Source: Methanobacteriota archaeon (GTDB lineage Archaea; Thermoplasmatota; Poseidoniia; Poseidoniales; Poseidoniaceae). Taken from it: a stretch of 34,274 nucleotides of DNA. Below the pieces are notes generated by a model that saw only the letters and a list, made by a program, of their open reading frames with translations, was not told the origin of the DNA and did not search any database. The stretch spans positions 18,166-52,439 of the forward strand of contig PBTA01000066.1 in the NCBI GenBank assembly GCA_002726395.1, in the 5' to 3' direction. Positions 2,079 through 22,558 of the stretch are shown here, piece by piece; the first letter of the stretch is position 1; each line of letters starts with the position of its first letter. Both the position numbers and the translations under genes were made by a program.

Positions 2079-4148
2079 TTAACCAACTATTTTTATTGTT
2101 TTCCCACACCCACTACAGGCTATTTTTAATGGCCTCTCATCGCTGGTGACTGGAATTTTGGTATCACATGCTGGGCAGCCAACAACTGGAACATCTATCG
2201 TGACTTCTGGCTTCTCATCAACTTCATTTAATTGCAACCGTCTAGGGCTGACTAGCGCAGTAAGTAACCATAATCCCGAAGTTACTGCTGAAGAGCCAAT
2301 CACAAACAATTCAGGATATGAAAAGAAGTAAATTAGTGCAACAATTGGTAGTAATACTAGTTCCAACATTAGGAACCTGCGATGTTTATTCTTAGTCATT
2401 GAAAGAGAGATGATAAGACCAAAAGAAATTATGATCAACGTGATTATGGTTAATGGCATTGGTGTGGAGATTAAGCCTTTACTTGGTTGGATGTAGAATG
2501 AAAATTCTTCATCAAGACTCATTGATGTACCTTCAACCTTGATTACTTCACCCCATGGGTACCTAGAATGGGAAAATGAAAGATCGTCTGTCTCCAATAA
2601 ATCAGCAGTTCCAAAGGAGGTGGTAATTGACGACTTAGCCTCTAATTTGAACGCATATGATTGCCAAAGTGGTGCACTTTGAGTAGATGTGAAGCTGCTT
2701 ACAAGATCAAATCGCTCTCCATCTTGCACTGTTTGAAGTGTAGAAAATGTCAAACTCAAGGGGTGATAAATAACTCGATCTTCACCCTTTAAATCAAGAG
2801 ATATTGAAATCGTATCAAAATCAGTCGAATCACCAATCAAATCTGAACTGTCAAGTTGCATGCCGTTTATGTCAGACATATAGGTTCGATATCTTTTACT
2901 CATCTCTCTTTCAAACTGCTCTAGTTCTACATTTTCAATACTACGACTTTCCCGGTCTTCATCAGCTACCCCGCCAGGACTCCAACCATAAAACACTGAA
3001 TTAGTTGATAGATCGTTATCTCCGATATGATCCATTCCCCATCTCATCCAGTAAGCCATTTCACCATCAATTTCCAAAGTAGTAGTCCTTGATAATTTCA
3101 AATTACCATCATCAATAGCAAGGTCGACAATTTGGGTAATGGTTAGTGGGCTTCCGCTTCCTCCGGTTCGCAGTGGTTCATTATCGGGATAGAATGTGCC
3201 TGTTCCTCCGCCGGTATCTGAGGTTTCAATTGTGAACTGTGCTGAGCCCTCAATCAATGGACCTCCATCTTGAAAATTTAGTCTTACACTGACCTGAATT
3301 GACTGTTCGCCACCTGACGCTTCAGTCCATGTCCAAGTAACTACAATCGAATCTCCACTCTGCGTTTTAATGGGCTCTCCAGGCACTTCTTGATTGTCTA
3401 CAGATAATTCAATAGATTCTGAATATGCAAGAGCATCAAGACCAAATGGCGAATCAATAATTACCGAAATATAGGCATCACTGCCTTCAATTTCCGGCTC
3501 ATCTATGGACAATTCCATCAAAGGTATATCTGCTGTTATCTTTGAGTCAAAGTCTGTAGAACCCCATAGAAATTCTAACTCAGCATTACCGCCTGGAACG
3601 CTAAAAATTACTGAACGTGCGCTAAGAACCAATTCTATTTCACTAGACGAGGACACTGACATTTCATCAACCGGTATTGAAAACTCGATTGTTCCCTCAC
3701 CTTGTGTCAGTACAGATGAATCAATATTTGTTGAATCCGAGAATGTTTGTGAGCCAATCTTGATTGTTGCAGTGGCGTTAATTTGGGCGCCACCTGCATC
3801 TGTTACCCGGTAATTCATGATCAAATTCCAATTTGATTCGGGTATTGAACCTGGCCAAACTTTACCCATGCTCCAAACACCTACCTCTTCTTGGGATGTT
3901 ATTGAGTTGGTAATCAATGCATTACTTGCTTCGTCTTCTAATAATTGAGAAAAAGGCGTAAGTGTACCACTTGAACCACCAATTAGGTACAAATCTACAT
4001 CATGAGAATCTTCACAACATACCACCACTGATTCTGCTTCGACTACACCAGAAAGTTGCGATGAAAATGGTAAAGAAATCATCAATAAGACCAGGGTTAA
4101 CTGAACTATTCTTGTCGACAAACCTCTCACCACATCAACGCCAATCAT
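2079..4148 (-). CDS. Secreted/membrane protein with C-terminal zinc ribbon
   Basis: A 689-residue protein of unrecognised family. An N-terminal signal peptide (IVQLTLVLLMISLPFSSQLSG) is followed by a cysteine pair (VVVCCEDSHD) and about 550 residues of beta-rich, acidic, Ser/Thr-rich extracellular sequence. A glycine-rich hinge (DTGGGTGTF) divides the ectodomain. Three hydrophobic segments (LTIITLIIISFGLIISLSM, LELVLLPIVALIYFF, and ELFVIGSSAVTSGLWLLTALV) lie near the C-terminus, then a short tail with a zinc ribbon, CPAC-x15-CSGC. Topology therefore suggests an outside sensor or scaffold with a cytosolic metal-binding tip. ATG at 4148 was chosen because it directly precedes the signal peptide. 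No enzyme motif was seen. Confidence 0.8.
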   Translation of the reverse strand: MIGVDVVRGLSTRIVQLTLVLLMISLPFSSQLSGVVEAESVVVCCEDSHDVDLYLIGGSSGTLTPFSQLLEDEASNALITNSITSQEEVGVWSMGKVWPGSIPESNWNLIMNYRVTDAGGAQINATATIKIGSQTFSDSTNIDSSVLTQGEGTIEFSIPVDEMSVSSSSEIELVLSARSVIFSVPGGNAELEFLWGSTDFDSKITADIPLMELSIDEPEIEGSDAYISVIIDSPFGLDALAYSESIELSVDNQEVPGEPIKTQSGDSIVVTWTWTEASGGEQSIQVSVRLNFQDGGPLIEGSAQFTIETSDTGGGTGTFYPDNEPLRTGGSGSPLTITQIVDLAIDDGNLKLSRTTTLEIDGEMAYWMRWGMDHIGDNDLSTNSVFYGWSPGGVADEDRESRSIENVELEQFEREMSKRYRTYMSDINGMQLDSSDLIGDSTDFDTISISLDLKGEDRVIYHPLSLTFSTLQTVQDGERFDLVSSFTSTQSAPLWQSYAFKLEAKSSITTSFGTADLLETDDLSFSHSRYPWGEVIKVEGTSMSLDEEFSFYIQPSKGLISTPMPLTIITLIIISFGLIISLSMTKNKHRRFLMLELVLLPIVALIYFFSYPELFVIGSSAVTSGLWLLTALVSPRRLQLNEVDEKPEVTIDVPVVGCPACDTKIPVTSDERPLKIACSGCGKTIKIVG

Positions 4149-4218: not shown

Positions 4219-4569
4219 TCAAAGGGCTTTTTCTAACAGAGCACCCAGTTCTTTTTCAAATAATGAGACCAAGGCCTCACCGACTTCGCCCTGTAAATCG
4301 TCAGGTAGTAATCTAAGCCCAAGTCTTGTAGCGGCTCTTGTTGCCTTAAGTTCCGCGTAAATAGAGCGGGCTTTGGATTGGAAATAATAAGACACAGCAT
4401 CTTTTATTTCACTTTTCAATTCTGGATCAGCATCGACTTTATTGCGGATATGGGTCTTTAATTCATCTTTGACAAGGTCCCTAAATGCCTCAATAACTAA
4501 ATCTTCGGTAGAAAGTAGTTCCTTGATTTGGTCTTTGATACTTCCAGTTAGTAATCTCTCTATTGCCAT
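4219..4569 (-). CDS. Small helical protein of unknown function
   Basis: A 116-residue protein with no signal peptide, TM segment or cysteine cluster. It is rich in Leu, Glu, Lys and Arg with heptad-like spacing (KDQIKELLSTEDLVIEAFRDLVKDEL), so it is probably all-helical and may oligomerise. It starts 43 bases after the stop of the RecJ/Cdc45-like gene on the same strand and may be the last gene of the arcS-rps15-DHH cluster. In many euryarchaea another ribosomal or translation gene follows at this place; this is not recognisably one. I do not recognise the family. Confidence 0.65.
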   Translation of the reverse strand: MAIERLLTGSIKDQIKELLSTEDLVIEAFRDLVKDELKTHIRNKVDADPELKSEIKDAVSYYFQSKARSIYAELKATRAATRLGLRLLPDDLQGEVGEALVSLFEKELGALLEKAL

Positions 4570-4612: not shown

Positions 4613-5512
4613 TCACATTAACTGACCTGAGGTAATTAATTGCTTCAAGAGGTTAGATGCGAATACTTTGCCTTCTCCATTTTCTTCTGGCCATGCTTGT
4701 TGGGTAGTGTAAATTTGTGAGTGCAAATCTTGTTGCTCATTGCCAGTAACAATCCTATACCAAATTAATTCCTCAAGTCTTGGAGTTGATAGCTTGTCAT
4801 TAGAAAGGCAAGGTAAAGCTAGTTCACTAAGCGCCTGTTGACGTTGTTCATAGCCCATTTTTGACCATTTCTTGGCTAGCCTTTTCAGCATTGAGGCGGA
4901 CATATTTGGTAACATGCCGATATCTGGGTCTGTTATTTCAGGTAAAGGCAACAAACGAATTGAACCCTCATCTTGTAAGATATCTCTAATTTTGGTATAG
5001 ACGGGGTCATAAGAATTGTCTAATGACTCCCGAAGCCAATGACCGACTCCAGATAATGACCTTAACCTTCTAACTCTTGTTCCATTAGGGCATATTTCAG
5101 AGGCGATTGCAGCACACTGAATAACTACATCAAGCGCCCCATTGTGGGCTTTATCGGAGTTCGGGTGATTTACTGAAATGGCTAATGGGACGATACGCAT
5201 CCTAAGTGATTCATCAATTTCTTCCGATTGCCAAGTGTCCTCATAATGCTCAATACTAATTATTAAATCAGCTTTTGATTGGTAATCGTATTCATCACCT
5301 TTTGGTTGATGTATTTTGGATTGTAGAATTTTTCTGCTATAAGGCACATTAGCATCGATCATTGCGGATTCCAAGTATGCAAGAGAGAGAATGCTTTCAA
5401 AATCTGCTGTAGCAAATATGGCAACACTATTAGCAGATTTTATTTTTTCAACTAACGAATTGATTCTAATTTTGACATCACGAAACAAGTTTGTTTCTAG
5501 AATATCATTCAT
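4613..5512 (-). CDS. Degenerate RecJ/Cdc45-like DHH-family protein
   Basis: This 299-residue protein follows rps15 by about 50 bases, the position where many archaea carry the GINS-associated RecJ-like nuclease (GAN), a Cdc45 relative. The N-terminal region aligns by eye with the DHH domain: ANSVAIFATADFESILSLAYLESAM sits where active proteins have an SHxDADGxxSAAI motif, and LAISVNHPNSD sits at the DHHP position. The metal-binding aspartates and the DHH triad are largely missing. The second half (EQRQQALSELAL ... GEGKVFASNLLKQL) resembles the region joining DHH to DHHA1 in GAN, and the protein stops there, so DHHA1 is absent. I infer a catalytically dead, possibly structural replication factor. 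Homology is from remembered family layout and synteny, so moderately sure. Confidence 0.6.
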   Translation of the reverse strand: MNDILETNLFRDVKIRINSLVEKIKSANSVAIFATADFESILSLAYLESAMIDANVPYSRKILQSKIHQPKGDEYDYQSKADLIISIEHYEDTWQSEEIDESLRMRIVPLAISVNHPNSDKAHNGALDVVIQCAAIASEICPNGTRVRRLRSLSGVGHWLRESLDNSYDPVYTKIRDILQDEGSIRLLPLPEITDPDIGMLPNMSASMLKRLAKKWSKMGYEQRQQALSELALPCLSNDKLSTPRLEELIWYRIVTGNEQQDLHSQIYTTQQAWPEENGEGKVFASNLLKQLITSGQLM

Positions 5513-5562: not shown

Positions 5563-6021
5563 TTACTCGACCATTAGTCTGAGTTCATCTCTCTTGTAAC
5601 GCCAATCTGTCGGCAGTTTGCCTTCAGAGATGTAGTAATTAGCCAATCGCCTAATCTTTGATTCGGTTATCTCAAGCGAACGCTTGTTGTGAATATCTTT
5701 GTGATTACCACTGCCTAGATGTTCGATGATTCTAGCCGCTTGACGCATGAGATTCATCATGTCTTCTGGGTAGGTGCCGCCGATATCATTTTCTGATAGA
5801 ATAGCACCAATTCTCTTACCAGTGACCAGTTTGACATTGGGAACCGCATGTTGGTCACGCAGGATGGTGCCAATTTGTGCAGTTGTATTGCCGGCTTTTC
5901 CGAGGTCAACAACTAGTTTAGTAACTTCATCAACGTTGGTATTAGACCACTCTGGAGCTGCAGTAACGTGGGGTTTCGATGAACCACTTTGGCCTTTTCT
6001 AGACTTGTACATACGTGCCAT
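5563..6021 (-). CDS. rps15: 30S ribosomal protein uS15 (archaeal S15)
   Basis: A small-subunit primary binder of the 16S rRNA central domain. The N-terminus MARMYKSRKGQSGSSKP matches the archaeal/eukaryotic extension MARMH..RRGKSGS, and the C-terminal part (LMRQAARIIEHLGSGNHKDIHNKRSLEITESKIRRLANYY) is the conserved helical S15 core. At 152 residues it has the usual archaeal length. The ORF track begins at GTG 6030 (MINMARM), but the family starts at MARM, so ATG 6021 is preferred. It lies between arcS upstream and the DHH-family gene downstream on the same strand, with short gaps that suggest one transcript. Confidence 0.95.
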   Translation of the reverse strand: MARMYKSRKGQSGSSKPHVTAAPEWSNTNVDEVTKLVVDLGKAGNTTAQIGTILRDQHAVPNVKLVTGKRIGAILSENDIGGTYPEDMMNLMRQAARIIEHLGSGNHKDIHNKRSLEITESKIRRLANYYISEGKLPTDWRYKRDELRLMVE

Positions 6022-6097
6022 GTTAATCACTCAAGCATTCTGCCGACTTGCCTCTCATTATTAACCACTCCGCATGGTGACATACCACTCACTAAGA

Positions 6098-7873
6098 CTA
6101 GATTCTTTGATGGCCTTTAGCGACAATACCTGGAATTTTATCCCATTCCCAGCCAGAAGCAGTCGCCCTTGCCAATCCAATCGGCTGATTATTTTGCAGT
6201 ATTAGAACATCATCACCTGAGTTAATTCCCTCATCAAAAGATTCCACTATTGAGGCAAAGACATCTCCTTTCCACTTTATCGATGGTTTAATGGTAGCAG
6301 TTTTCAGTGAAGAATTCTCGGCAATGAGTTTGACGGATGATTTGGAAAGGGAAAATCCTCTGCGGTCATTAGACCATTGCGCTATTTGTTTGCCATCTAA
6401 TTCAATCTTCCAATAAGGTGGCTTACCACGTATTTTAACGCCCTCTAGCCAACGATCATTATTCATTTTGTATCTTGCCACACTCTGAAAGTTGTCGACC
6501 AATATACGATGGTGACGGCGATTTCGTGGGGATAAATCTTGATTTACCTTAGCCACTGCTTGGCGTAAATTATCAAGAGCGTCTCTAGAAGTAGCCGGCA
6601 AACCGTTCCTGGTCTCAATATACTTGATTCCATCCAGTTGGAAACTCATCGAAGAATGATTAATCACCGTATGATAATTATGTCGGGACAATAAGGCTTT
6701 GACCATTGCTTCGGATCTTGCAAATTCGTCAAGACTCCAATCTCCAGTCACTGGAATATCATAATGAGACGCAGGCCAGACCTCTTCTAAATCCCTAGGA
6801 ACAAGTCCAAGAGGCGAGGTAACCATTACCTCATGGTAACAACTTATTCCAATCGCATCCATAAATTTACGATGAGATTTAGACATTCTGTAAGGCTTCT
6901 TTGCTGAACATGGTAGCAGAATCAGTACATTATCAATACCGTTTGGCGCGACATAATCATTAGTCATGTAATCAACCCACTTGGTGATAATTGGATTTTC
7001 TAAAGAAATAGGAGAATTACAATGCAATATTGTGCTAGATTCCACATGAGAGATTCCTAGATTAGCATTGGTCAGACTCAATTTGTCGTGATGACGTAGA
7101 TGTTCTACAAGTTTTGGACTGTTTAGTGATTGTCGCTCTACTAAAGTTCTCAAAGTTCCACCTGCTAAGTGTGATTTAATTTCTTTTAGAGCATTATTCC
7201 ATTGACTAATTTGGCAACCCATTTCAGCACTATCATCAGTACCACTAACTAAATTTCTTGGCCCTGATTCTGTTAAGAGTAAATTAGCAGCCATACATTG
7301 CCTTGAACGGCTTAAATCAAATAAATCAACACCGAACCAAACCAATACTGCTGCATTATCTGGTCCTCCAAGGCCCGGTGTCCAAACTAAAGCCCCGGGG
7401 AAACGGTTTTTGATCACCGTCAAAGCACGAACTAACTTGTCTTTTTGAGCCGCTAATTGCACAGCATCAACTAGAACCACAATACTTGGTTGTAAATCAC
7501 TATCAGTTAACTTAGAATCATGATTTAGTCGTTGCCATGAAAGTGGCAAAAGTGCACCTGTCTCGGCTAATTCTCCGGCATCAGCTTCCTCTAAAGAAGG
7601 TGGCAAAACATGACCAATTTTCGCAGTAAATTTCGGAGATTCTTCTTGGAAATCTGGCGGCGAAAGTGGCAGTCTAGCATCGATAGTTAGAGTTGCCGGG
7701 ATTTCATTGTCTGTCGTGGTTAAAAATGGCGCTAATTTCACCGGAATTTCAGGGTCTCCATCCAATTGTATTAGGCAGGGAGTTGTCGCAGAAGGTACCT
7801 TTCTATCTCCTAGGCCCCAACTCCTAGCATACAGGTAGCGATGAATTACCGTCCGTCCTAATTCATTCGCCAT
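6098..7873 (-). CDS. arcS: Archaeosine synthase (tRNA amidinotransferase)
   Basis: ArcS converts preQ0 at position 15 of tRNA to archaeosine (G+), after a TGT has inserted preQ0. The diagnostic ArcS motif PC-x3-KPY-x2-S-x2-H is intact as PCSAKKPYRMSKSH near residue 318, followed by LVPRDLEEVWPASHYDIPVTGDW. The first half is a divergent TGT-like barrel without a convincing zinc site, and the last ~75 residues (KWKGDVFASIV ... DDVLILQNNQPIGLARATA) are a PUA RNA-binding domain. At 591 residues it is full length. The ORF track starts at TTG 7879; the ATG six bases in (MANELGR) is preferred. No TGT (tgtA) or Rossmann partner is in the window. It heads the cluster that continues into rps15 and is divergent from the 7954 gene. 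Confidence 0.92.
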   Translation of the reverse strand: MANELGRTVIHRYLYARSWGLGDRKVPSATTPCLIQLDGDPEIPVKLAPFLTTTDNEIPATLTIDARLPLSPPDFQEESPKFTAKIGHVLPPSLEEADAGELAETGALLPLSWQRLNHDSKLTDSDLQPSIVVLVDAVQLAAQKDKLVRALTVIKNRFPGALVWTPGLGGPDNAAVLVWFGVDLFDLSRSRQCMAANLLLTESGPRNLVSGTDDSAEMGCQISQWNNALKEIKSHLAGGTLRTLVERQSLNSPKLVEHLRHHDKLSLTNANLGISHVESSTILHCNSPISLENPIITKWVDYMTNDYVAPNGIDNVLILLPCSAKKPYRMSKSHRKFMDAIGISCYHEVMVTSPLGLVPRDLEEVWPASHYDIPVTGDWSLDEFARSEAMVKALLSRHNYHTVINHSSMSFQLDGIKYIETRNGLPATSRDALDNLRQAVAKVNQDLSPRNRRHHRILVDNFQSVARYKMNNDRWLEGVKIRGKPPYWKIELDGKQIAQWSNDRRGFSLSKSSVKLIAENSSLKTATIKPSIKWKGDVFASIVESFDEGINSGDDVLILQNNQPIGLARATASGWEWDKIPGIVAKGHQRI

Positions 7874-7953
7874 ATTCAATCCTAATGCTATTCGTACAAG
7901 AATAATTCCTTCTAATCCCTAACTTCAAACATGACATCGAGTACGGCAAGGTG

Positions 7954-13494: not shown

Positions 13495-13989
13495 ATGTTG
13501 AATGGCCTAGATGAGGGAATCGAAGTCATAATTTCAACAACAATATCAGGTGCTGAGTCACCAACCCTTGTTCTTGAGAGTGTGCAGAATATTTTTCCAG
13601 ATTTTACTGCTGATGAATTTACTGAGCCCACATTTGGTGTTGCTAATAAATATCATTGGATAAATGAACAAATTTCTTTGAATAATTTTCTCCAAATGGT
13701 TCACAAACAAGCCATTTTGGATACTGCTCTAGATGTGATGAGTCTGAATCTGAAAAACCAGCAAACTAGTTTCCAATTACTAAGGCAAGCAAGTATTGCC
13801 AGTAAAATAGCATTCAATCTAGAACAAGGTAACCCACTAGGTGGAGTAATCAATGTTGAACTGAAAGGTGAGAATCTAGCAGACTGGCTTGAAGCAGCAA
13901 CCTGGCATAAAGGAAGAGACGCCGTACCAAAAAGAATCAATGACGAACGTCAAATGGATTTAGATGGTGAAGCTTCTACTTGGATTTGA
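13495..13989 (+). CDS. UPF0201-like archaeal protein (COG1931 type)
   Basis: A 164-residue protein whose two ends look like the archaeal UPF0201 family. The start GIEVIISTTISGAESPTLVLESVQNIFPD resembles the family's N-terminal strand-helix ending in NxFP. The later part FQLLRQASIASKIAFNLEQGNPLGGVINVEL resembles the conserved LxxQAA..GxxxF...PLG.I.V block, with ADWLEAATW at the usual DWLAPxT position. Members are predicted RNA-binding proteins without a settled function. The ORF track begins at TTG 13459; the ATG at 13495 gives an N-terminus that fits the family better, though the TTG form cannot be excluded. The 3' end overlaps the convergent Pcp-Nudix gene by 14 bases. Confidence 0.65.
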   Translation: MLNGLDEGIEVIISTTISGAESPTLVLESVQNIFPDFTADEFTEPTFGVANKYHWINEQISLNNFLQMVHKQAILDTALDVMSLNLKNQQTSFQLLRQASIASKIAFNLEQGNPLGGVINVELKGENLADWLEAATWHKGRDAVPKRINDERQMDLDGEASTWI

Positions 13990-14995
13990 GATTCCTAAGA
14001 ACTTCTAGAGCTGCATCCTTGTCTGCGCCCAATAACTCAATATCTTCGATACTATCAAACCATGATATCTTGTCATGTGAAGTCCATTCTTCATGATTAT
14101 TATAACGATTATTTGGCTCCAAAATCAGTTGCATAATCTGCAAATCAATACATAACTCGTCATATTCAAAATACCAATTACCAAAGTTTGAACTGTCAAC
14201 TACATCCCAATTAAACTCCTCTTTTATCTCTCTAGTTATTGCCTCTTCAAGTGACTCATTGGCCTCAACTTTACCACCAGGGAATTCCCATTTACCAGGC
14301 ATTTTTGATGAACCATTACGACGGGCCAACAGCATTTTTTTGTTATCGGTGATTAATCCACCAACTACTTCAATGACCGGTTTGAAAAAAAGCCTACTAA
14401 TTACTTGATATAATGATGCGAGAGATTCTTCTACAGAGATATACTGCTCACTTGGCAAATGGATAAAACAACATGGAATCTGATTTTTTAAACCTTTAAC
14501 CGCTAATTTAGACAACGTTTGGTAATATGTCTCATTGCAAATAAAACTACCAGCATCGTTTGATTTGGTAATATGTTTGATTGGTGGATAAGATAATCGT
14601 TGTATTACAGAATCATTGGCATAGATATCGTGTTCACCTAGCCTAACATCATTAACCATGCGCCCAGAATTATCGCGAATTCTCATATCGAGATTATTTT
14701 TAGCAGTGGTTTCAAGTCTGATTTTATCACTTGAGTCACACAAACCAAGATGTATTATTGCGTCCCAAATTTCACCCTCATCCAATCTTTTGGCAATTGC
14801 GTTACTGCCATCATTATCTACCGTTAAAATAATTTTTTCAACGTAAATTTCTTGACCTTGAAGTGTGGCATTTCGCAAGCCACTCCATGGATCAAAGACG
14901 GTAACCATTTCTGGTACTTTTGCCAGTACATCCTTGGAAATATTGGAATTATGGTTGCCGAATGGTTCGAATCCTGTGACCAATATTCGTCCCAT
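13976..14995 (-). CDS. Pyroglutamyl peptidase-Nudix hydrolase fusion
   Basis: A two-enzyme fusion of 339 residues. Residues 1 to ~205 form a C15 pyroglutamyl peptidase: ILVTGFEPFG at the start and a complete triad, E95 in KIRLETTAKN, C153 in NDAGSFICN and H179 in CFIHLP. Residues ~208-335 form a Nudix domain of the MutT/CTP-pyrophosphohydrolase sort: VVGGLITDNKKMLLARR, KMPGKWEFPGGKVE, and the box GKVEANESLEEAITREIKEEFNW, where the glycine after EE is replaced by Asn. The Nudix acidic residues are kept, so both halves may be active. The first half would remove N-terminal pyroglutamate; the second would hydrolyse a nucleotide-diphosphate substrate. One uninterrupted frame and the lack of a start at the junction argue for a true fusion. 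Confidence 0.88.
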   Translation of the reverse strand: MGRILVTGFEPFGNHNSNISKDVLAKVPEMVTVFDPWSGLRNATLQGQEIYVEKIILTVDNDGSNAIAKRLDEGEIWDAIIHLGLCDSSDKIRLETTAKNNLDMRIRDNSGRMVNDVRLGEHDIYANDSVIQRLSYPPIKHITKSNDAGSFICNETYYQTLSKLAVKGLKNQIPCCFIHLPSEQYISVEESLASLYQVISRLFFKPVIEVVGGLITDNKKMLLARRNGSSKMPGKWEFPGGKVEANESLEEAITREIKEEFNWDVVDSSNFGNWYFEYDELCIDLQIMQLILEPNNRYNNHEEWTSHDKISWFDSIEDIELLGADKDAALEVLRNLKSK

Positions 14996-16702: not shown

Positions 16703-19700
16703 TCAACCAGTCTGCCTTGAGTCATATCTTAGTGGAGATGAATCGCCTCGTAGCCCATCTTCTTCATCATCATTTACTTCAAACCAATCCACAATCCAAT
16801 CACCGTCAGTATCCCAATTAATCGGACTGGTCCCCTCTGCAATGTGGTCATTGTCAAGATCGACTGTATACCATCCAAATTCATGTTCACCTACGGCTCT
16901 AACAGGTGCTGTCTGGGGTGAACTGGTATAGTAGATCTCCCATTGATCAGTAAGTGCGCCAGATACTAGAGTTTGGTCATCACTTGGATTTAGAGTAAGG
17001 AAATCATCATCGTTATCATCAACAATCAAAATATATCTAAAATCATTAGACGATTGTTTATCCATCTTCAAATAATTAGTACTAGCCTCAGATGGAGTCC
17101 CGAGCCCTAACAAATATCCACGGAATTGCCACCATTCCTCAACAGGATTACCTTCATACACTAACGGAGCTAAACGGACCGCATTTGGTGACGTCAAATC
17201 GACGTTAGTTAATGTAAAAAATTCTTGGAAATTAGTATAAGGTTCATAACTACATCCTGCGCCAGAACAGTCATAATTACCATCATTATCAGGGTCATAA
17301 TTAGCGTCCACAGGATCTGCGGGATTCAAAGTAAACCAAGTTAATTCTAAGTTGGGACGAGACAACTTGTCTCCATTTAGTGAAAGCGGTAAACAAGAGA
17401 TTGTATTAGTATCACATTCTCCGCCAGTTAAAGAATCAATCCAGATAACTTTGATTTGTAAGAGTGAAGAAAAATTATCGTTTGATTCATTCCAAGCCAT
17501 CTTGTATTCATACCAATCTGGTAACATATCTCCATCAGTATCATTGTCGTTTGGATTGATACCATACTTGAATACTTCTCGACCATCACTGAGGTTGTAA
17601 TCAATTTCATGAGAGATTACTAATCCATTCGACGTTTGTGTATTATAGATTATCGAATCACCATCTGTATCATTCAAATCTGGCCGTGTATTATTGTTCC
17701 ATTCCATTAGATTAGTGAACGGCAGAGAGCCCGGACCTGGTTGGATTATCACACCGCTTCCAGTAAAGGTTCGATCATCCCATTCACCTTGTTGTGCCGG
17801 GATATCGAATGCATTTCTATCATACCAACCATCACTATCGCCGTCGTAATTGACATCATGCGGATTGACCGGATTTGCCGCCCAGTGGTCTTCGGTTGAA
17901 ACATCAGGCATACCATAAATTGCGTAACAATATTCCCAACCATCTGGAATGGAATCACCGTCTGAATCACTACTTGTTGGATCGGCAACACCGACTAGTG
18001 TGCGATTAAAGTTATTAGAATCATATGAGTTGATTTTCAACATCCTATCAGCACTGTCTGGACTCTTTGAAATGAAGTCATCATACAATGCTGCTCTAGC
18101 TTCAAAATAGGTATAACCCATTTCTTCTTTGTAGGCATTGATAGCATCATCACCAAAACTCAAAATTCCAACTTCTTGTGGAATTGTATTTCTTTCAGAG
18201 TATTTACCCCATGTCCTTGATTCCCATTCTCTGAGATTGGAAAATCGTTCGTCTAATGAAATATTGCCGTCACCATCACAATCAAAACTGTCTCCATCAG
18301 TATCTAGCAACACATCCCCATCGATGAGTGGATTAATGCTCCATAAATTACCTTCTAAATCCCATTCCGCAAACCAATATTCAAATCCGTCATACATACC
18401 ATCTCCATCAGTATCTGGATTAGTTGGGTCAGTTATACCCATTAGAATAGAAATGAAATTATTTGCTGGTTCACCATTTTGCCAATCGTTAAAATCATCT
18501 AGCAAGCGCTTCCCTCGAGTTTCTTTTGAGATTAATATATTGAACATTCTTTGGGCCTTTTCGGTAGGTTGTAGTAAATCTCCATCAATGTGTAACAGAG
18601 GTGCATCAGAAGGGTGTTCAATTCCATTATCTGGATTTGAGGTTACTAGGGCAAATTCTTGTAAGTCAATTAAACCGTCTTCATCAGAGTCAAACATTCC
18701 GTCACCAGGAACCAGTGGATTTAACGTCCAAGTTTCAGCAGATTGGTTCCAAGTAGTAAACAGTAATTCAACACCATCGATAATTCCGTCACCATCAGTA
18801 TCAACATTATTTGGGTCACCAGTTAATCCTGTTAAATTTCGCTGAGTAGAATTCACAAATGAGCCAAATGAAAGGTCGGTTTGTATTCCAGCCCACGCTT
18901 GGAATGTGTAAGCACTACCGATTGTGGTAACAAACCACTTTGGCGATGAACGCTCGGCATCGGTTTCTGTCAATAGAGGGTCGATTGCGTTATATTCTTC
19001 CCAATTAGTCATTCCATCTTTGTCGGCATCTTCCCATCTATCAGCCGGTTGTAATGGATTAAGTGTCCATTCATCTTCCAATATGTTCCATCTAGAAAAC
19101 CAGATTTCCCAACCATCAGGCATACCATCATCATCGGTATCTGAGTCCAGGGGATTAGATGAACCTGAATCAATTGAATTTTGAGTTGCCAGCAGGGAAC
19201 CTGCTGCACGTTCTGCATAAGATGCCTCTGGTGCACCATTGTCGCTTACAAAAGTGAATAAATCTGTACTAAATCCAAACGGTAACGCACTGAAATCCGT
19301 TGGATTATTTTCATCAAACAAATCGTAGCGCAAATGATATTCAAGGTAGTTTACCAGAGCCTCATTTTGCTGAATTATGCCGTCTCTATCGATGTCAAAT
19401 CCATCACCATCAGGATTTTTCAGTGCATCAGAACCATTTAGCGGATTTATTCCAACTCTTGAACTATCCCAAGAACATGAATAGGCGGCTTCCCATCCAT
19501 CAGGCAACGAATCACCATCTGAATCGATATTGTTTGGATCGGAGTCAGACCACAACTCTGCATCGGTAGAATTCTCTCCATGGGACTCAAATAACAATCC
19601 TTCAATTGCTTGCTGCTTTACTTGAGTCCATCGATATTCACATAAATTTTGTAGCCCATCACCATCAGCATCCCAACTTGCATCCTCTGCTCTGTTGGGA

Positions 19701-22447
19701 TCTAATGACCAATTATTACCACCAGTAAACGAGGAACCAACCCATCTGCGGTTCTCTATCTCCCAGCCGTCTGGCATTCCGTCACCATCTGAATCTGGAT
19801 TTGTTGGGTCAGTCCCAATATCACTGGTTGATAGGCTGAGGTAGGTGGAATTGGCGTCACCACCAACTTGGCTATCACAGATGTACTCAAGTTGTACAGA
19901 ATAATAGCACCACAGGTTAGTGCTCTCGTAGTAGAAACCAAAATACTCTTCACCGTCGCTTAATCCATCACCATCTGTATCTCCAACATTCGGATTAGTA
20001 GAATTATAGCCATCATCTGTAGTAGCGATATATCTGAATTCATCGAGATTGGTCCACAGCCGCTCTAAAATCCCATCACCCGATTGATCTAAATCTAGAC
20101 CATCATAATCGAAATCTAATAGCGCATCCCATGGGTCTGTCGGGTCCAAATTGTTACCAATTTCCCATCCATCAGGCATACCATCACCATCAGAGTCGTT
20201 GGATTTTGGATTCATTAATTCAAGGTTAGAAAATTGTCCAGGTTCGGATGATGCAAAAATAGTCATATTTTCAAAAGAGCCAATAGTTGCAATTTCAGAG
20301 ATATATCCGGGTATAGTTTCCTGTTGATCAATCTCGTATACATTGGAATAGTCACCTGAAAGAACCCACGTACCTGCGTTGGAGCCAAGAATAATTTGTT
20401 GCCCTGTAGAATATATTGATCTTATGTTATTAATGTCTCTTGTACTGACTTCATTTGAACCGGGATTTTCTAATAGACCACTGTGACTTATTACATTGTC
20501 AATAAGTCGCATTTGATGTAGTCCCGAAGGAGTACCAAACCAAAGTACTTGAGGGCTCTCCGGTGATGGACCGTCTAACAGAATATCTCTTACTTCAGCA
20601 GGATTTTCTGCACTTCCCGTTGGTAATGTTCGCAATTCATTTATTGATGCAAAAACTCCTGTGTCCTCTTTTGAGTAGAAGAATCTCCAGTCAGCGATAT
20701 TACCATCCCTACCAGAGTTGGTCTCACAGGTAAGAAGGCCTCTATCGGTAGCAACGAAGAGTGTAAGATTGCCGTTAGCAAGACCGTGCTCTATATCCGT
20801 AACACTAGCATTACCGTTTGATAATTGGTTGGTTATCGCTTGACTTACTTCATGAACTTGTTCAATCAGTCCAAAGCTACTGACTTCAAACACATTACCA
20901 GTTCCCGCAAACCCAAGTCCAATTATCTGATTATTCGGGCTATTAATCAATAATTCTTCCAATTCATGTATCGTTTCTGTTTGTGACCAATCCCAATTAT
21001 CTACAGATTGCAATAATCCGTCGAGCTGGATTCTTGCCACACCCAAACCAACGTTAGAAGCCAAAGCAATGGCATAAACTTGATCACTTTGATCACGTAA
21101 AATAGTTGAGTCATAGAGTTCTACACCTTGAGGTATCCAATAATCAGTGGAAGATGATAGTGAATTGTCAATTACTGTTATCCCGTATTTTGTGGTGACA
21201 TACAACATTGATTCGACAACCTCCAAAGATCTGACATCATGATTTATGACACTGATTTCTTCGCTTTGGGTAGCAAAGGAAATTGGATACTGATAGAGTG
21301 TTGACATTTCGCTAGCGTACATTGTTGATTTTAGCCCCGCCATTACGGTATTACCATCATCAAAGTAAATATTATACTCTTCAATATTAGATAATTGCTC
21401 ACCTAATTCAAGCGCAGTTGCTGTCCTACTTACATCCGGAGAAATAACTCCATCCAAATTTTTATCCCAACCGTCCAAGTCTTCGTCAGACAATGCACTG
21501 CTTCTATTTAGCGGGTCTAAACCGAAGTGAACTTCCCAACCATCAGGAATCCCATCACCAAAAGACGGAAATAAATTCCGAACGGTAAATCCATCCCAGT
21601 TGTACCTATCTGAATCCTTCAATAAAGGATCAGTACCTAACCACAAATCCTCACCTACTGGAGATTCTGAATTAGTACAGGCAGCTAAAATATTCTGGAA
21701 TGTGGCATTTACTCCAGTAGGGATATAGGGCCAATTAGTTAGAATTGAGCCCTCCGGCAAGGTCGCAGTACACCAAAGACCATCAAGTTCTGTAGTATGA
21801 TTTGATGGAGCACCATAGATATATTCTTCACTTGAGGTATACCACTCATTGAAACTCATTATGCCATCTCGGTTTACATCAAAACCATCCTTATCTGGAT
21901 CTTTAGCAACATCACTAGCGTTTAATGGGTCAAAGTCAGTACACTCGTATCGCTGAGAAAATACATCAAAACCACCAATTCTCAGGCACATATAGGCTTC
22001 ATAGCCATCAGGCATACCATCGCCATCGGTATCTGATTTTCGAGGATCTAAGTATGAACGGAAACCTTCCCCATCAACCACACCTGTTAAGCCACGCAAA
22101 AAACCAGGATCTGTACATTCAGCAGGATAGGGCCAGCAATATTCTTCAGTGGAGTTTAAGCCATCTCTGTCAACATCAAGTATTGCATCTGAAGCATCAT
22201 CTGCATCCATACCTTGCATCGAGTAACCTCTGCCATCAATAGCTGTAGAATTTACCCATTCAGCGAATATATCTTCGTGTACATCAGGTATTCCGTCACC
22301 ATCTGAATCGGTTGTTGGGGGACGTTCTTGATTAGTATCATCAGGATGAACATTGGAAACTGGAGATATTGTTGGAAATTGCGCCATAAATAGCAGACTG
22401 ATAACCACTGCCAATGTAGTAAGCAGTGTAGATTGACTTCGACGCAT
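16703..22447 (-). CDS. Giant secreted calcium-binding repeat protein (TSP3-like)
   Basis: A 1914-residue exported protein. The signal peptide MRRSQSTLLTTLAVVISLLFMAQF is followed by more than a dozen thrombospondin type 3-like calcium loops: DTDGDGMPDGYE, DSDGDGMPDGWE, DTDGDGLSDGEE, DSDGDSLPDGWE, DTDGDGIIDGVE, DTDGDWIVDWFE and others. Many sit in a larger unit of about 100-150 residues of the form DGDGMPDGWE...W.LNP...D...DxDGDG...EY. Residues ~370-745 lack these loops and read like a beta-propeller (VESMLYVTTKYGITVIDNSL, TLFVATDRGLLTCE, GSNAGTWVLSGDY). No C-terminal TM or sorting signal is visible. ATG 22447 is chosen over TTG 22495 or ATG 22480 because GGTGA lies six bases upstream and the signal peptide then begins at once. 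It is likely a surface or released adhesive or structural protein. Confidence 0.88.
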   Translation of the reverse strand: MRRSQSTLLTTLAVVISLLFMAQFPTISPVSNVHPDDTNQERPPTTDSDGDGIPDVHEDIFAEWVNSTAIDGRGYSMQGMDADDASDAILDVDRDGLNSTEEYCWPYPAECTDPGFLRGLTGVVDGEGFRSYLDPRKSDTDGDGMPDGYEAYMCLRIGGFDVFSQRYECTDFDPLNASDVAKDPDKDGFDVNRDGIMSFNEWYTSSEEYIYGAPSNHTTELDGLWCTATLPEGSILTNWPYIPTGVNATFQNILAACTNSESPVGEDLWLGTDPLLKDSDRYNWDGFTVRNLFPSFGDGIPDGWEVHFGLDPLNRSSALSDEDLDGWDKNLDGVISPDVSRTATALELGEQLSNIEEYNIYFDDGNTVMAGLKSTMYASEMSTLYQYPISFATQSEEISVINHDVRSLEVVESMLYVTTKYGITVIDNSLSSSTDYWIPQGVELYDSTILRDQSDQVYAIALASNVGLGVARIQLDGLLQSVDNWDWSQTETIHELEELLINSPNNQIIGLGFAGTGNVFEVSSFGLIEQVHEVSQAITNQLSNGNASVTDIEHGLANGNLTLFVATDRGLLTCETNSGRDGNIADWRFFYSKEDTGVFASINELRTLPTGSAENPAEVRDILLDGPSPESPQVLWFGTPSGLHQMRLIDNVISHSGLLENPGSNEVSTRDINNIRSIYSTGQQIILGSNAGTWVLSGDYSNVYEIDQQETIPGYISEIATIGSFENMTIFASSEPGQFSNLELMNPKSNDSDGDGMPDGWEIGNNLDPTDPWDALLDFDYDGLDLDQSGDGILERLWTNLDEFRYIATTDDGYNSTNPNVGDTDGDGLSDGEEYFGFYYESTNLWCYYSVQLEYICDSQVGGDANSTYLSLSTSDIGTDPTNPDSDGDGMPDGWEIENRRWVGSSFTGGNNWSLDPNRAEDASWDADGDGLQNLCEYRWTQVKQQAIEGLLFESHGENSTDAELWSDSDPNNIDSDGDSLPDGWEAAYSCSWDSSRVGINPLNGSDALKNPDGDGFDIDRDGIIQQNEALVNYLEYHLRYDLFDENNPTDFSALPFGFSTDLFTFVSDNGAPEASYAERAAGSLLATQNSIDSGSSNPLDSDTDDDGMPDGWEIWFSRWNILEDEWTLNPLQPADRWEDADKDGMTNWEEYNAIDPLLTETDAERSSPKWFVTTIGSAYTFQAWAGIQTDLSFGSFVNSTQRNLTGLTGDPNNVDTDGDGIIDGVELLFTTWNQSAETWTLNPLVPGDGMFDSDEDGLIDLQEFALVTSNPDNGIEHPSDAPLLHIDGDLLQPTEKAQRMFNILISKETRGKRLLDDFNDWQNGEPANNFISILMGITDPTNPDTDGDGMYDGFEYWFAEWDLEGNLWSINPLIDGDVLLDTDGDSFDCDGDGNISLDERFSNLREWESRTWGKYSERNTIPQEVGILSFGDDAINAYKEEMGYTYFEARAALYDDFISKSPDSADRMLKINSYDSNNFNRTLVGVADPTSSDSDGDSIPDGWEYCYAIYGMPDVSTEDHWAANPVNPHDVNYDGDSDGWYDRNAFDIPAQQGEWDDRTFTGSGVIIQPGPGSLPFTNLMEWNNNTRPDLNDTDGDSIIYNTQTSNGLVISHEIDYNLSDGREVFKYGINPNDNDTDGDMLPDWYEYKMAWNESNDNFSSLLQIKVIWIDSLTGGECDTNTISCLPLSLNGDKLSRPNLELTWFTLNPADPVDANYDPDNDGNYDCSGAGCSYEPYTNFQEFFTLTNVDLTSPNAVRLAPLVYEGNPVEEWWQFRGYLLGLGTPSEASTNYLKMDKQSSNDFRYILIVDDNDDDFLTLNPSDDQTLVSGALTDQWEIYYTSSPQTAPVRAVGEHEFGWYTVDLDNDHIAEGTSPINWDTDGDWIVDWFEVNDDEEDGLRGDSSPLRYDSRQTG

Positions 22448-22558
22448 GCCTTCACCTGTCACGAAGTATAGCCTTCGCATTTGTCGACTTCCCAACTACA
22501 CTTATGAGCATGATGGAGTGATGTTCCGACATTGATTCAGTTGGTTGAGTAAAAAAAT

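Follow-up and report, generated by a model that had tools for sequence, protein, structure and literature searches.

A degenerate RecJ/GAN/Cdc45-like protein without DHHA1 at the S15 locus of Marine Group II archaea

In a Marine Group II (Poseidoniales) archaeon, the gene next downstream of rps15 encodes a RecJ/GAN/Cdc45-like protein of 299 aa that lacks both the catalytic residues and the C-terminal DHHA1 domain of its intact relatives, and we consider it probable that this protein is a degenerate GAN/Cdc45 orthologue surviving as a scaffold bound to GINS and MCM. Structure, profile comparison, synteny and some 130 relatives all support this family assignment, as they do the loss of the catalytic residues and the lack of DHHA1. 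The stretch of DNA analyzed, here called the window, spans 34,274 nucleotides and comes from a metagenome-assembled genome (MAG) of 1.81 Mb that is 77.6% complete.

The gene, its neighbours and its fold

In the ORF call, the RecJ-like ORF begins with an ATG start codon. The features of the locus to which we refer below are as follows, with their evidence in brackets:

4613 to 5512, minus strand: degenerate DHHA1-less RecJ/GAN/Cdc45-like protein, 299 aa (ORF, AlphaFold2, Foldseek, profile match, dN/dS)
5563 to 6030, minus strand: rps15, 30S ribosomal protein S15, the upstream neighbour marking the archaeal GAN locus (Pfam, NCBIfam)
6098 to 7879, minus strand: ArcS-like archaeosine synthase subunit, outer synteny marker (NCBIfam tRNA_mod_ArcS, E 4.3e-70)
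2079 to 4148, minus strand: membrane/zinc-ribbon protein of 689 aa, which serves as outer synteny marker at the opposite end (its homologue abuts S15 in genus g2)
4219 to 4569, minus strand: orphan protein of 116 aa (same strand, 43 bp beyond the RecJ-like gene; as a neighbour it is conserved just in family f1)
5393 to 5413, minus strand: degenerate motif I, ATADFES, residues 34–40, counterpart of GAN GHYDADG (hhalign; tally over 130 relatives)
5162 to 5173, minus strand: VNHP, residues 114–117, likely site of the lost DHH triad (sequence; strand order in the model)
4754 to 4789, minus strand: STPRLEELIWYR, residues 242–253, family signature with no evident GAN counterpart (alignment A1)

The position just after rps15, given in a preliminary description of this DNA, was correct: 50 bp separate the S15 stop codon from the RecJ-like ORF, and the S15 ORF was identified both by Pfam (Ribosomal_S13_N, E 6.5e-23) and by the NCBIfam S15 equivalog. 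Elsewhere in the window, the ORF at 13976–14995 (minus strand) joins pyroglutamyl-peptidase (C15) and NUDIX domains in a single reading frame, and the ORF at 16703–22495 (minus strand) encodes a protein of 1930 aa that no Pfam model matches at E 0.001.

Sequence searches with the single 299-aa protein returned nothing significant in Pfam, NCBIfam or PDB sequences, nor did searches of Pfam and PDB sequences with the Poseidoniales family as the query; the best PDB profile matches, to MthK potassium channels (E 0.055), were short and local and were discarded. We built an AlphaFold2 model of the protein with the 39-sequence alignment A1 (mean pLDDT 91.5, pTM 0.90) and compared it with the PDB using Foldseek. 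Archaeal RecJ/GAN structures came first and Cdc45 next; ranks 1–22 (E <= 0.001) consisted of archaeal RecJ/GAN and human Cdc45, with more Cdc45 chains below. The top match, at E 8.8e-8 and probability 1.0, was P. furiosus RecJ (5x4i), and the top group also included T. kodakarensis GAN (5ghr, 5ghs, 5ght, 7e15), M. thermautotrophicus RecJ-Cdc45, M. jannaschii RecJ2 and human Cdc45, the last matched as 6xtx at E 8e-4. TM-scores of the best matches were only 0.51–0.54, with no residue map given. These matches agree with the RecJ/GAN/Cdc45 fold that the preliminary description had proposed.

The N-terminal part of the protein matched a profile of 22 intact Thermoplasmatota GANs at E 3.5e-4 with a score of 28.9, which was reached by none of 60 column-shuffled nulls (maximum 16.5), and this match is therefore not due to chance. 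In the profile-profile alignment (hhalign), ATADFES sits column for column on GAN motif I, GHYDADG, so that the protein can indeed be laid along GAN, with TADFES in the DxD region, as had been read by eye. The C-terminal half was also colinear with the GAN profile, but its score was equalled by 5 of the 60 nulls, and DHH_CID was matched weakly by one family member (E 0.28); sequence support for this half is not significant by itself, and its probable identity as the CMG-interacting domain (CID) and stem is drawn from the fold match and the colinear order. When 194 genomes of the phylum were searched blind with the family profile, five sub-threshold matches lay outside Poseidoniales, three of which (G171, G178 and G225) were RecJ/GAN N-termini. 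A DHH-type N-terminal fold of the RecJ/GAN/Cdc45 superfamily is thus supported for the modelled protein.

Distribution, the GINS partner and gene losses

Genus and family labels (g1, g2, f1, f2, f3) come from the genome search; we call f3 MGIII, taking it to be the sister group within the class. The gene was found in 55 of 60 related genomes by protein search and in 119 of 146 genomes of the class by profile search. A degenerate pattern made from the family signature matched 186 stretches in 84,980 prokaryotic genomes, and 180 of these encode relatives; the 80 relatives listed were all labelled Poseidoniales/MG-II or uncultured euryarchaeotes, with the exception of one Rhodobiaceae bin. This record (L268, CALDQY010000024.1), titled Rhodobiaceae bacterium, encodes a member of the archaeal family with 41% identity and is probably mislabelled or mis-binned.

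We examined 130 loci, some of which represent one genome present in two collections. The gene order in Poseidoniales is ArcS, S15, the dead RecJ-like gene, the 116-aa gene (in f1) and the 689-aa gene. S15 is present in 128 of the loci and shares the strand of the RecJ-like gene in 127 of them. Nine loci (L020, L021, L218, L221, L223, L232, L233, L239 and L242) have about 1 kb between S15 and the RecJ-like gene, a gap that in L020 holds a pirin-like gene on the other strand. Complete orthologues are about 280–307 aa long, and the single-contig MG-II chromosome CM001443.1 carries the short gene too. For nine pairs with measurable dS, dN/dS was 0.03–0.08, indicating strong purifying selection. 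Together, the order-wide occurrence, similar length, S15 synteny and low dN/dS indicate a functional gene rather than a broken one. Sister genomes, in which intact DHH and DHHA1 had been considered a sign of frameshift or misassembly here, carry the same short gene.

The 116-aa orphan gene lies beside the RecJ-like gene in 30 of 30 g1 loci, 79 of 80 further loci and none of 20 f2 loci, following it in family f1 by 25–46 bp (109 of 110 loci). Its product is far more conserved than its RecJ-like neighbour, has no significant Pfam, NCBIfam or PDB match, and is possibly a partner of the RecJ-like protein.

Pfam GINS models were too weak to find Poseidoniales GINS with confidence, and we searched with an MGIII-derived profile followed by a Poseidoniales profile. 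An A-then-B-domain (Gins51-type) GINS was identified first in MGIII and then in Poseidoniales, with 31 of the 35 genomes searched encoding one; it was not found in the window's own MAG, at 77.6% completeness, and is present in other species of the genus. Poseidoniales GINS proteins fall below Pfam cut-offs (one member matched Gins51_C at E 0.014), and in the two loci read (L157:1486-2475 and L139:931-1953, both minus strand) the gene adjoins those for EF1A and S10. The AlphaFold2 model of GINS (mean pLDDT 74) has a helical N-domain and a C-domain well above 85, and the Poseidoniales GINS proteins (alignment A6) have a long low-confidence linker between the A and B domains. The model matched GINS subunits first, and its C-domain superposes at 1.5–2.0 A on the Gins51 C-domains of 5ghr and 5ghs, which were crystallized with GAN.

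We propose that the Poseidoniales orthologue of archaeal GAN/RecJ-Cdc45 has remained at the ancestral S15 locus, that the 299-aa protein has retained the N-terminal DHH-type fold, and that the helical region following it (residues 140–299) probably corresponds to the CID and stem. The resulting scaffold would bind GINS and MCM and aid the helicase. The S15 neighbourhood and the presence of a Gins51-type partner in the order are consistent with such a Cdc45-like role in the CMG. Contact with MCM is made by the CID (PMC5484177), and the middle region of the Poseidoniales protein may likewise act as a CID, bind GINS and MCM, and affect unwinding.

All four g2 genomes of Poseidoniales (L080–L083; G050, G036, G108 and G104) lack the gene: ArcS-S15 abuts the 689-aa homologue, which is followed by GluRS, and the RecJ-like family profile had no match at this locus or elsewhere in the g2 genomes. 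Within MGIII, the one genome of g22 (L087) has a 531-aa membrane gene, S15, an intact GAN, a methyltransferase gene and trxB in this order, and in the three genomes of g23 (L084–L086) S15 is joined directly to the methyltransferase gene with no GAN between. At the S15 locus the deletion is clean in both g2 and g23; in either genus, a copy may have moved elsewhere and diverged beyond recognition. GINS is kept in g23 and, including its C-domain, in g2. Since g2 is without the RecJ-like gene yet has GINS, the gene is not indispensable in Poseidoniales. Relaxed evolution of the g2 Gins51 C-domain was looked for and not seen; identity of g2 GINS to other f2 sequences was 0.36 in the A-domain and 0.44 in the B-domain, while three further f2 genomes that are also divergent gave 0.42 and 0.50. 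A more speculative reading, which we hold to be less likely than not, is that the class shows a stepwise dismantling of archaeal Cdc45, from intact GAN (g22) through a dead DHHA1-less remnant (Marine Group II) to loss (g2 and g23), the order of events being suggested by the distribution across genera. If the losses are real, some present-day archaea have a replicative helicase with GINS and without any Cdc45/RecJ subunit.

The persistence of GINS in g2 without the RecJ-like gene would also fit a history in which the GAN-derived protein parted from the helicase, no longer plays a Cdc45-like part and has taken up another task, such as repair or a partnership with the 116-aa protein, the primase or the polymerase. 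The closely following and far more conserved orphan gene of f1 points in the same direction, as does the invariant STPRLEELxW region, which has no evident GAN counterpart (the signature STPRLEELIWYR is nearly invariant in alignment A1). We nevertheless consider this departure from the helicase unlikely, since the gene remains at the S15 locus, a neighbourhood that marks replication-linked archaeal RecJ (PMC3307487), the retained domain is the one that binds GINS in known complexes, and the Gins51 C-domain persists.

Lost catalytic residues, lost DHHA1 and the whereabouts of intact GAN

The residues agree with the earlier reading of the protein as catalytically dead. The window copy has D37 and E39 where GAN motif I has its two Asp, and is without the motif-I His, the DHH set and motif IV. 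The motif-I His is kept in 0 of 130 relatives, being replaced by Pro, Thr, Ala and a few others. The position of D37 holds Asp in 89 of the 130 and Ser, Asn or Thr in 41, so that D37 is not a conserved catalytic residue; the position of the second motif-I Asp is mixed, the DHH-triad region is not conserved, and motif I reads APSLPG in f2 members. None of the Poseidoniales orthologues (alignment A1 and the 130 relatives) has a catalytic H-D-D, D or DHH set, and no replacement set of acidic or histidine residues is conserved in the tallied motif regions of the 130 relatives. The letters VNHP, proposed earlier as the remains of the DHH triad, were confirmed, whereas their placement there is likely only from the strand order in the model, the register not being fixed by sequence.

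The GAN profile has 466 positions, and the hhalign alignment stops at position 341, immediately short of DHHA1. Nowhere did the 299-aa protein match the DHHA1 columns above shuffles (18 of 60 and 27 of 60 nulls were as good), which upholds the claim that the protein ends where DHHA1 would start. We rejected the idea that DHHA1 has split off into another gene, because a search of Poseidoniales genomes with PF02272 gave no stand-alone DHHA1 gene among the matches inspected, a set that excludes a 495-aa ORF in G047 and weak matches to ORFs of ~340 aa. Matches to this model comprised a Rossmann-DHH-DHHA1 protein, a 335-aa DHH-DHHA1 protein and long ORFs (roughly 900–970 aa) taken as AlaRS.

Intact GAN was sought with the 447-aa protein of an MGIII genome (L087:4859-6202), which carries HYDCDGL, VVDHH and GGIGGGH. 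At E <= 1e-10, 104 of 145 phylum genomes had a match, and no Poseidoniales genome was among the matches listed. S15 adjoins the intact GAN in 23 of the 30 best loci, and an intact, DHHA1-bearing GAN lies beside S15 in the rest of the phylum, including one MGIII genus. The window's genome encodes two DHH proteins, a 463-aa Rossmann-DHH-DHHA1 protein and the 335-aa DHH-DHHA1 protein, neither of which is GAN; on this ground we rejected a second intact GAN kept in the genome. In four f2 genomes with good coverage, Pfam detected no DHH protein at all. The search for a second, intact RecJ suggested in the preliminary description accordingly found none in those Poseidoniales genomes that were covered.

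Most f1 members have Asp at the first motif-I position and many have Asp or Glu at the second, which could mean that the protein has rebuilt its active site and still works as a phosphoesterase. We regard this as very improbable: the motif-I His, DHH triad and motif IV are missing, motif I of f2 is APSLPG, no acidic or histidine replacement is conserved in the tallied motif regions, and DHHA1, which makes the active-site groove of RecJ together with DHH (PMC5484177), is absent. An unrelated Rossmann-like protein sitting by chance after S15 would account for the lack of significant Pfam, NCBIfam and PDB sequence matches and for the low pairwise identity to GAN, but seems more improbable still, given that Foldseek matches are specifically to RecJ/GAN/Cdc45 over the protein length, that the profile match centred on motif I exceeded all nulls, and that three of the five weak out-of-order matches were RecJ genes. 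Frameshift, truncation or misassembly of an intact GAN, conceivable in a MAG, is refuted by some 130 loci that agree in length, degeneration and synteny although they come from many assemblies (CM001443.1 among them), by the failure to find a separate DHHA1 piece and by dN/dS of 0.03–0.08.

Comparison with known systems

Crenarchaeota and Halobacteria are known to encode inactivated RecJ homologues near S15, and the survey describing them, in which Poseidoniales are not mentioned, concluded that a RecJ orthologue is most likely indispensable in archaea and that DHHA1 is probably crucial (PMC3307487). A literature search that was thin on subscription journals and covered mostly titles and abstracts gave no paper connecting Marine Group II to RecJ or GINS in this way. 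An inactivated RecJ at the S15 locus is thus of a known kind; new, as far as could be checked, are its lineage, the missing DHHA1 and the deletions in two genera. The rule that DHHA1 is crucial is broken order-wide by abundant ocean archaea, and the rule that RecJ is indispensable is apparently broken by two genera (g2 and g23). The role of Cdc45 as a bracket between GINS and MCM would then be separable from the gripping of single-stranded DNA, and the 299-aa protein would constitute a natural minimal Cdc45 for biochemistry, suggesting that a replication-helicase partner can be pared to a bare scaffold.

Compared with GAN and archaeal RecJ (arCOG00427; T. kodakarensis GAN, P. furiosus RecJ and T. 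acidophilum RecJ2), the degenerate Poseidoniales orthologue is alike in its N-terminal and middle fold, its place after S15 and its Gins51-type GINS. GAN is an active nuclease of about 450 aa with H-D-D, D, DHH, motif IV and a C-terminal DHHA1, all of which have been lost from the 299-aa Poseidoniales protein. Among inactivated relatives, arCOG05692 reportedly keeps most of the DHHA1 core, and the Sulfolobales RecJdbd is said to match the DNA-binding C-terminal part of RecJ. The Poseidoniales family, being without DHHA1, would differ from these two. A degenerate DHH is shared with the inactivated RecJ of Halobacteria (arCOG00428), Desulfurococcales (arCOG00432), Thermoproteales (arCOG05692) and Sulfolobales (RecJdbd/Cdc45, arCOG05902), and the S15 neighbourhood with the first three of these (PMC3307487). 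In Sulfolobus, a degenerate RecJ serves as Cdc45 and forms the CMG (PMC7776575). Methanococcales arCOG00433 (PMC3307487) is also a domain-loss derivative of archaeal RecJ, but it has lost DHH and is a paralogue encoded elsewhere in the genome, whereas the Poseidoniales protein has kept the DHH part at the ancestral locus. Eukaryotic Cdc45 has a catalytically dead DHH-type first domain, as does the Poseidoniales protein. However, eukaryotic Cdc45 keeps DHHA1 and is essential, while in Poseidoniales DHHA1 is absent and the gene is dispensed with in close relatives.
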